Source of the DNA: Deltaproteobacteria bacterium
Lineage (GTDB): Bacteria; Desulfobacterota; DSM-4660; Desulfatiglandales; HGW-15
NCBI GenBank assembly: GCA_016931115.1
Contig: JAFGFM010000195.1
Coordinates: forward strand, 1 to 34,149
Length of the DNA stretch: 34,149 bases
Direction: 5' to 3'
Part shown: positions 3,189 to 5,789 of the stretch, piece after piece
Layout: each line of letters begins with the position of its first letter
Numbering within the stretch: position 1 is the first letter of the stretch
The notes under the pieces: generated by a model
The model's database searches: none
Seen by the model: only the letters and a program-made list of their open reading frames with translations
What the model was told of the DNA's origin: nothing
Translations under genes and position numbers: made by a program

Positions 3189-3201
3189 TGCAGTATTATA
3201 G

Positions 3202-3244
3202 AAGGCGCCCCTTTTTTCTACTGGAAAAAAGGGGTGCCTTTTTT
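3202..3244 (+). terminator. Strong terminator after the UroD-like gene
   Basis: A 17-bp stem (3202-3218 with 3224-3240; one G-T pair) closes a five-base loop. The descending arm ends in TT and runs into TTTT (3241-3244). It begins 14 bases after the stop codon. Confidence 0.85.
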
Positions 3245-3418: not shown

Positions 3419-4831
3419 GTGATGCAAAACATACTCTTATTATCAAAAAATCCAGATGTATACCGGCAGCTTATGCCCTGTTTTGGGGCTGAAATACAGA
3501 TAGGCAAGGCTGAAAACGATACCCAGGCCATCTCAATGCTCCAGAGCAGACGTTATGAATACCTGTTTATGGATATCTCTCTGTTCAGCACGCCTGAAAA
3601 GAACTGGATCAGTTATAAGAACTATTTACAGTCATTCATGAGCCTGTACCCTGCCCTTGACATAATTATTATCACTTCAGTTGAAAGGATAAGAGAAGCG
3701 GTAAATGCGGTTAAAGAGGGGGCAAGTGACTATATTCTGTTTCCGATCAAACCTGATGAAGTAATTTCTGTCTTAAAGAATATCAAAGATTCCCTTATTG
3801 CCAGATCAGAACCTGATTTTTTTAAAGACAGACTTAAAGATACTGATATACAGCAGACCATGAGGACTGCCAATGCAAAGATGAAAGCGGTCTATGAAAA
3901 ACTCAAGTCTGTATCTCCAACAAACAGTACTGTTCTTATTACAGGCGAGACCGGGACAGGGAAAGGGGTTATTGCAAGACTGATACACCGCCACAGCAGC
4001 AGAAAGGATGCCCAGTTTATAAGTGTCCACTGCGGGGCCATACCTGATACACTATTAGAAAGCGAACTTTTCGGCCATGAAAGGGGGGCATTTACCAGCG
4101 CAATAAAGCGTAAACTGGGCAAATTTGAGATCGCAGACAAGGGTACTATCTTTCTTGACGAAATAGGCACAATAACCCCTGCTGCACAGATCAAACTGTT
4201 ACAGGTACTTCAGGATGGTATATTTCAGCGTGTTGGTGGGGAGGTTACAATACATACCGATGCCCGAATTATTGCCGCCACCAACATGGACTTAAAAAAA
4301 ATGTGCGAGGATGGAGAGTTCAGAAAGGATCTCTATTACAGGCTTAATGTCTTTCCCATTGAGGTACCCCTTTTAAGGGAGAGGACTGAAGACATACCTC
4401 ATCTAGCTATGATGTTCCTTGAAAAGATGAATAAGCATAACACAAAGGCTATTAAGGGTTTTTCACCTGATGTGATGGAGGCATTTATGCATTATCCCTG
4501 GCCGGGAAATATCAGGGAGCTTGAAAACCTTATTGAGAGGGCATACATACTGGAGACCGGTTCAATCCTGCAACCTGACAATTTTCCATTGGAAATATTT
4601 GAGTATGGCCGACAGGATGTCGATAACACAAGAAAACGTACCGGAAACCTTGCAAATATCCGGAAAAAGGGCATTGAAGAGATTGAAAAAAATTATCTTA
4701 TGGATCTGCTTAATGAGACCATGGGTCGAATTAAACAGGCGGCAGAAACAGCAGGGATAACGACAAGACAGATACATAAATTGCTTACAAAATACAATAT
4801 ACACAAGGAAGATTATAAAGGTAGAAAATAA
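3419..4831 (+). CDS. NtrC-family sigma-54 activator with atypical receiver domain
   Basis: The product has 470 residues in three parts. Residues 1-125 are a receiver-like domain with the phosphoacceptor-position D52 (FMDIS), S/T at 86-87 and K111 (FPIKP). The usual acidic pair after strand 1 is missing: ILLLSKN replaces ILxVDDE. Residues 145-385 are the AAA+ domain with Walker A GETGTGKG (176-183), the sigma-54 loop GAFTSA (223-228, normally GAFTGA), Walker B TIFLDE (243-248) and the arginine segment FRKDLYYRLN (301-310). A Fis-type HTH (GRIKQAAETAGITTRQIHKLL) is near the C terminus. It should activate sigma-54 RNA polymerase. Start is GTG 3419 or ATG 3422; neither has a good ribosome site. 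No histidine kinase is adjacent. A sigma-54 promoter lies just downstream (4898-4913), ahead of the DksA-like gene, the most likely local target. Confidence 0.92.
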   Translation: MMQNILLLSKNPDVYRQLMPCFGAEIQIGKAENDTQAISMLQSRRYEYLFMDISLFSTPEKNWISYKNYLQSFMSLYPALDIIIITSVERIREAVNAVKEGASDYILFPIKPDEVISVLKNIKDSLIARSEPDFFKDRLKDTDIQQTMRTANAKMKAVYEKLKSVSPTNSTVLITGETGTGKGVIARLIHRHSSRKDAQFISVHCGAIPDTLLESELFGHERGAFTSAIKRKLGKFEIADKGTIFLDEIGTITPAAQIKLLQVLQDGIFQRVGGEVTIHTDARIIAATNMDLKKMCEDGEFRKDLYYRLNVFPIEVPLLRERTEDIPHLAMMFLEKMNKHNTKAIKGFSPDVMEAFMHYPWPGNIRELENLIERAYILETGSILQPDNFPLEIFEYGRQDVDNTRKRTGNLANIRKKGIEEIEKNYLMDLLNETMGRIKQAAETAGITTRQIHKLLTKYNIHKEDYKGRK

Positions 4832-4897: not shown

Positions 4898-4913
4898 TGG
4901 CATAAATTCTGCA
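4898..4913 (+). promoter_or_regulatory. Sigma-54 (-24/-12) promoter of the DksA-like gene
   Basis: The site TGGCATAAATTCTGCA has GG at 4899-4900 and GC at 4911-4912, the required ten bases apart. It matches TGGCAYR-N5-TGCA, and only the base before TGC departs from consensus. Transcription would start near 4923-4925, leaving a leader of about 115 bases before the ATG at 5041. An inverted repeat AAAGGGT/ACCCTTT (4840-4846 and 4861-4867) lies about 70 bp upstream of that start and could be an activator site or part of the end of the previous transcript. Confidence 0.65.
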
Positions 4914-5040
4914 TAAATGTCGCTGAAAAAAAATAAGAAGAAAATGCATTTTTTTCTTGATTCATGATTGATTTTACAATATTTGATGCCTTTTTTAATA
5001 GAACACTATATCTCTCATGTAAAAATGGGGAGGAGATTTC

Positions 5041-5706
5041 ATGACAAAAAATTCTACAAAGGTTGATTCTTCAAAACAGAAGAAAAAAATCATACCTGTT
5101 ATTAATAAACCTGAAAAAAAAATAAGAACAAAGGAAAGAACCGACCATTTCAGGACAAGATTTCATTCCCATCTCCTGGCAAAAAAGAGGGAGCTTGAAA
5201 GCGTAATTGATACTCTGATAAAGGAAAACAACGAGGACTTCAGCAAGATATCCTTTGATGGAATGATAGATGAACTGGACCGTACAGACAGGGAGATGGC
5301 GGCACAGAATTACTACAGGTTTCTGGACCGCAAAAAATTTGAGTTGAAGAGGATTGATTCCCTGATTGACAGGTTAAAACATGATCAGGACTTCGGAATA
5401 TGTGAAGAATGCGAGAAACCAATCCCGGAAGCAAGACTTATGATTGTCCCTGAGGCTGTCCTTTGTGTTGCATGCCAGGAGGAGCTTGAAAAAATAGAAT
5501 CAAGGGCCAACCTTGCTGCCAGCTCAGGTAAAATCCTTCCATACAGGGATGATTATGAGACTGATGAAGAGACCGAGAACATTGATGATGCCGGTCTTGT
5601 TACAAAGGCCGGTTCAGAATCAATGTCTCTGATGGATATGGAAGAGATCGACCTGCTGGATATACCTGAAGCTGCACCTGAAGAGGAGAATGAAATAACT
5701 CCTTAG
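5041..5706 (+). CDS. DksA/TraR-family zinc-finger protein with acidic tail
   Basis: The product has 221 residues, against about 150 for E. coli DksA. A basic N-terminal extension (1-35, many Lys) precedes a coiled-coil region (40-115) whose tip carries D77-E-L-D80-R-T, the equivalent of the DxxDxA tip that DksA inserts into the RNA polymerase secondary channel; Ala is replaced by Thr. The zinc finger is C121-E-E-C124, then 17 residues, then C142-V-A-C145. Residues 165-221 form an acidic, probably disordered tail rich in Asp and Glu. DksA proteins tune initiation together with (p)ppGpp. The ATG follows GGGGAGGAG (about 5027-5035). The gene stands alone after a sigma-54 promoter and ends at a bidirectional terminator, so its level is probably set by the sigma-54 activator upstream. 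Confidence 0.85.
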   Translation: MTKNSTKVDSSKQKKKIIPVINKPEKKIRTKERTDHFRTRFHSHLLAKKRELESVIDTLIKENNEDFSKISFDGMIDELDRTDREMAAQNYYRFLDRKKFELKRIDSLIDRLKHDQDFGICEECEKPIPEARLMIVPEAVLCVACQEELEKIESRANLAASSGKILPYRDDYETDEETENIDDAGLVTKAGSESMSLMDMEEIDLLDIPEAAPEEENEITP

Positions 5707-5750: not shown

Positions 5751-5789
5751 AAAAAACGCGAAGCCGCATCCCTGCTCTTCGCGTTTTTT
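5751..5789. terminator. Bidirectional terminator between convergent genes
   Basis: A 13-bp perfect stem (5751-5763 with 5777-5789) with A6 at its left foot and T6 at its right foot works in both directions. It lies between the stop of the DksA-like gene (5706, plus strand) and the stop of araA (5811, minus strand). Confidence 0.85.

Follow-up and report, generated by a model that had tools for sequence, protein, structure and literature searches.

A near-consensus −24/−12 element at positions 4898–4913 very probably constitutes a genuine sigma-54 promoter upstream of a DksA-like gene. Our best guess, drawn from comparison of related genomes, is that this gene would be controlled by the sigma-54 activator encoded next to it; the full account, a working sigma-54 promoter through which the neighbouring activator controls the DksA-like gene, we hold to be evenly poised between right and wrong. 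The window, by which we mean the whole stretch of DNA analysed, is 34,149 nucleotides long, and the features of the locus are collected in Table 1.

Table 1. Features of the activator/DksA-like locus (positions in the window).
Feature	Position	Strand	Basis
Terminator-like hairpin and T-run (GGCGCCCCTTTTTT / AAAAAAGGGGTGCC, then T-run)	3204–3243	+	Read from sequence
Sigma-54 enhancer-binding activator gene, start GTG 3419 or ATG 3422	3419–4831	+	Pfam, orthologues
−24/−12 sigma-54 promoter element TGGCATAAATTCTGCA (putative); predicted start near 4924	4898–4913	+	Sequence, consensus match, G001 identity
Conserved leader of DksA-like gene	4944–5015	+	97% identity to G001
Ribosome-binding site GGGGAGGAG	5027–5035	+	Read from sequence
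DksA-like protein gene, 221 aa	5041–5706	+	PF01258, clade placement
C4 zinc finger of DksA-like protein, C121-x2-C124 ... C142-x2-C145	5401–5475	+	Alignment of 19 sequences
Terminator-like hairpin flanked by A-run / T-run (AAAAAACGCGAAG / CTTCGCGTTTTTT)	5751–5789	. (unassigned)	Read from sequence

The first hairpin ends the upstream URO-D/MtaA-like gene and sets the activator gene apart from it; the second sits between the DksA-like gene and a convergent araA gene. Co-transcription of the pair with either neighbour is therefore unlikely. In an Rfam search, the hairpin near 3200 gave two weak matches that fell short of the gathering score. Transcripts from the predicted start would begin with a ∼ 117-base leader that contains a good ribosome-binding site.

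Situated past the activator stop (4831) and ahead of the DksA-like ATG (5041), the element has its GG (4899–4900) and GC (4911–4912) ten bases apart and matches the consensus TGGCACGNNNNTTGCW at 9/12 specified positions. The preliminary description, which had placed a near-consensus −24/−12 element between an activator gene and a DksA/TraR-type gene, is borne out in this respect, the flanking genes encoding PF00158 and PF01258. For comparison, Geobacter promoters shown to be RpoN-type by primer extension match at 9 to 11 of 13 positions (PMC2725144). The activator/DksA-like pair is kept in a sister species (G001), where the two proteins are 95% and 92% identical. The core of the element is identical there at 16/16 positions, within a run of 22 identical bases, whereas the 62 bp upstream of it are 56% identical and third codon positions 76–78%. 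The element is thus conserved along with the gene pair, a check that the earlier description had proposed, although this conservation comes from one species pair, G001 being the only other genome examined in which the gene pair was found. It is stronger evidence for the element than the chance statistics given below. RpoN is encoded in both genomes, and in that of the window it matches PF04552 with E = 2.6e-64. Relatives of the DksA-like gene in other genera are mostly located elsewhere (in several genera adjoining tmk and holB) and lack the element, which is thus specific to the window's genus. Among 17 such relatives, only that of G013 has a loosely similar upstream element (TGGCCTCAATTTTGCA), which is not of the strict form. 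The tmk–holB stretches examined from the window's genus contain no DksA motif.

Pfam matches (PF00158, E = 5e-67; PF25601; PF00072, weak; PF02954) describe an activator made up of a degenerate receiver, a sigma-54 AAA+ domain, a lid and a Fis-type HTH. The AAA+ assignment is clear, and the loop of the activator reads GAFTSA in place of GAFTGA, a change confined among the orthologues to the window's genus. In the receiver D52 is retained; the acidic pair and the lysine are missing, as they are in the orthologues, so ordinary phosphorylation by a kinase seems doubtful. Many such activators take other input, and the receiver result limits only the two-component reading. NorR carrying serine at the GAFTGA glycine retains activity and partly escapes its regulatory domain (PMC2941729), and NtrC G219C, altered at the corresponding residue, reportedly works only when enhancer DNA is absent (work cited in PMC2941729).

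Orthologues of the activator (46–60% identical) occur in ∼ 40 other genomes, mostly Desulfobacterota, and stand well apart from other activators (< 40%). In many of these genomes the activator gene is followed by a common architecture, with three GGAAC-N5-GTTCC sites ∼ 203, 173 and 70 bp upstream of a −24/−12 box. Within the order, a strict box and three sites are present in 9/9 orthologues that are at least 53% identical and have readable downstream DNA; G008 has its two far sites 24 bp more distant, and G024 has its box ∼ 715 bp past the activator stop. The architecture is repeated in named genomes and was not seen in some more distant orthologues. Eight of these promoters served to build the site matrix by eye, so their high scores follow in part from its construction; the KamA, groESL and G024 promoters and most of those from named genomes did not contribute to it.

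The usual target of this promoter is a small OB-like protein, unannotated and lacking a Pfam match, which is absent from the window's genus. The family (∼ 85–100 aa, motif PxDWDExGNVxxxAISxHDExEY) usually provides the first gene after the activator's promoter (L045–L048, L056, L057, L059, L141, L145–L148), and related copies stand in tandem on contig C69 of G006. A three-site promoter also precedes groESL in G006 and G052, adjoining the activator in the latter; it serves one of several groESL copies (L120, L138, L163). Activator sites were not found at groES in the window's genus, and negatives in other genomes are weak (ORF frames doubtful). A further three-site promoter precedes a conserved operon (L311, 2632–7846 on G000:C133; L312; L100) for a KamA-like lysine aminomutase, two D-Ala-D-Ala-ligase-like ATP-grasp proteins, a GNAT–histone-deacetylase-like fusion and a GNAT protein. 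No published description of such a regulon was found in the papers searched, which cover the literature in part. The activator family is widespread and apparently undescribed, and we infer that it is stress-related.

Neither species has the three family sites between −450 and +150 of the element, the best scores of −0.1 and 2.1 being below the 2.9 that shuffled sequences reach on average. They are present upstream of the KamA operon, at 199, 169 and 67, in both the window genome and G001, so the specificity of the activator appears intact. The description of the neighbour as the 'probable activator' of the DksA-like gene is, on this distribution of sites, not supported as worded, and its role at that promoter is one that we infer. 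The neighbour may act without upstream sites, or via the conserved leader, or not at all. A bolder idea, which we consider improbable, is that the GAFTSA activator works enhancer-free, from solution, at the DksA-like gene and yet uses enhancer sites at the KamA operon; if true, this would be a two-mode activator with a polymerase modulator as its local output.

The missing sites would also fit a sigma-54 promoter driven by an activator encoded elsewhere, the neighbour now serving only targets further away, the KamA operon among them, and its adjacency being an ancestral remnant. The window genome has 71 candidate activator places on first look, consistent with many other sigma-54 activators. 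This explanation is possible, if rather doubtful: in relatives, a box right after the activator gene has that activator's sites, no alternative activator site was identified at the DksA-like promoter and DksA genes fill the activator-adjacent slot in three other lineages.

In those lineages (L145, L148 and L154) a DksA-family gene belongs to an activator-adjacent sigma-54 unit, and the activators are 51–54% identical to that of the window. The L145 promoter (Desulfobacteraceae UBA5616) is divergent from the activator, with sites at 197, 167 and 67 and the gene order OB-like, DksA, HU-like. The L148 unit follows the activator (sites at 187, 114 and 73) and encodes an OB-like and then a DksA-like protein, and in L154 (a Desulfosudis oleivorans isolate) the box lies directly before DksA with one recognisable site at 101. 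Their DksA proteins fall into subfamilies other than the window's, on long branches whose exact placement is unsure. Such a promoter was found at none of 34 other DksA-family genes examined from the order (0/34). Genomes carry about six DksA-family genes each; we estimate that a DksA neighbour would arise by chance in ∼ 1 in 100 loci of such size, and three further lineages among ∼ 40 are more than expected.

The leader of the DksA-like gene is more conserved between the two species than the coding sequence, which is beyond what a sigma-54 promoter alone explains. It may hold a downstream site for the activator, a second promoter or an mRNA element. Its predicted fold is nothing unusual (z-score 0.24), on which basis RNA structure was rejected, and a comparison of the leader with Rfam gave nothing above the gathering score. 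The 11-mers common to the gap and other sigma-54-like upstream regions are merely short, mostly T-rich words. We think it unlikely that the main transcript comes from another promoter within this leader, for example a weak sigma-70-type one, with the −24/−12 element secondary or unused. The identity of the leader, a weak hexamer pair found in it by eye (TTGATG-18-TATATC, 8/12) and Geobacter dksA, for which an RpoN element was predicted and an RpoD start found (PMC2725144), would all suit such a promoter. However, the + strand of the gap holds no sigma-70 match of at least 9/12, in agreement with the preliminary description, which saw no normally spaced sigma-70 promoter, and the −24/−12 core is conserved amid diverged DNA.

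The strict pattern TGGCAYN6TGCW matches once in the whole window, where 0.58 matches are expected by chance; by this count the element is not unusual. In single-base shuffles of the 209-bp gap a strict match arises in 31 of 200,000. Genome-wide (5.2 Mb) there are 89 strict matches at the right spacing versus 58.5 per wrong spacing, a rate that translates into a chance of ∼ 1e-3 for one strand of the gap. These genome-wide counts were rejected as functional proof, since the wrong-spacing control leaves an excess of only ∼ 1.5-fold, and a reversed-pattern control (89 versus 3) was set aside as biased by CG content. A chance resemblance, with which the single match per 34 kb and the small genome-wide excess would agree, is nevertheless very unlikely, as the element is on the correct strand, falls in the single gap in which the activator family leads one to expect a promoter, and is fully conserved within diverged DNA.

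The product of the downstream gene carries a DksA/TraR zinc finger (PF01258, E = 1.8e-14), whose four cysteines are all invariant across 19 sequences, together with an N-terminal extension and an acidic C-terminal tail. It does not reach the equivalog cut-offs for canonical DksA (52.8 versus 115.5 and 59.7 versus 105 bits; TIGR02420 / NF033459) and belongs to a long, acidic-tailed clade distinct from the canonical DksA that these genomes also encode. Solved DksA/TraR structures, including 4ijj, 1tjl and TraR, are matched by a profile of the clade; a single-sequence structure prediction is of low confidence (pLDDT 57.8) and agrees only with two long helices. The canonical DksA coiled-coil tip has the motif DxxDxA. 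Here D80 and D83 are present and T85 replaces A in both species, where most relatives have A. A scan of genome contigs with the DksA-like protein confirmed no relatives. That the protein acts globally on RNA polymerase is an assumption based on its family. Separately, in both species (G000:C33, L228; G001:C116, L245) ∼ 2 kb separate a second groES copy from a DksA gene of canonical type, and groES and DksA genes are likewise within ∼ 2 kb on G003:C216.

The locus resembles known systems in its parts. With NtrC/NorR-type systems it shares an AAA+ sigma-54 activator with a Fis-type HTH and an activator-adjacent −24/−12 promoter, and the three upstream enhancer sites in relatives of the window's activator recall norV with its three NorR sites (PMC2941729). 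It differs from them in the degenerate receiver, the GAFTSA loop, the adjacent promoter without a recognisable enhancer and the DksA-like target. Like DksA, DksA2 and TraR, the DksA-like protein combines a C4 zinc finger with two long helices and the acidic tip DxxD, but it differs in its long acidic C-terminal tail, N-terminal extension, T for A at the tip and separate clade. Geobacter sulfurreducens dksA (GSU3206) likewise has a predicted −24/−12 element; primer extension found an RpoD promoter, the RpoN element was not confirmed and the extract of PMC2725144 describes no adjacent activator. We conclude that the parts are ordinary and the combination new: in the papers searched, whose coverage is partial, we found no description of either the regulatory combination or the conserved regulon.

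We propose that the DksA-like gene would be transcribed from a working sigma-54 promoter at positions 4898–4913, and that the neighbouring activator, a member of a conserved, mostly Desulfobacterota family, is of a kind that runs a stress-type gene set (small OB-like proteins, the KamA/ATP-grasp/GNAT operon, one groESL copy and DksA-family factors). On a signal, the activator hexamer would spend ATP to open the sigma-54 polymerase complex at the promoter, acting without the usual three sites, either from solution or through the conserved leader. The DksA-like protein so made would, by analogy with DksA, enter the secondary channel of the polymerase and shift transcription. In favour of this account are the element and its conservation, RpoN, the 9/9 orthologue architecture, the groESL and KamA sites, and the DksA units of L145, L148 and L154 set against 0/34 elsewhere. 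Against it are the absent sites, GAFTSA, the single species pair, the conserved leader and the RpoD precedent in Geobacter.

The canonical dksA genes examined have no sigma-54 signals. If this activator family is repeatedly linked to DksA-type factors from different subfamilies, a dedicated signal would be able to reset how the polymerase behaves. Work cited in PMC2725144 proposes that DksA with ppGpp favours sigma-54 transcription, so such a circuit could be self-reinforcing. With its three sites in a nearly constant arrangement, the regulon can be predicted in many genomes and put directly to the test.
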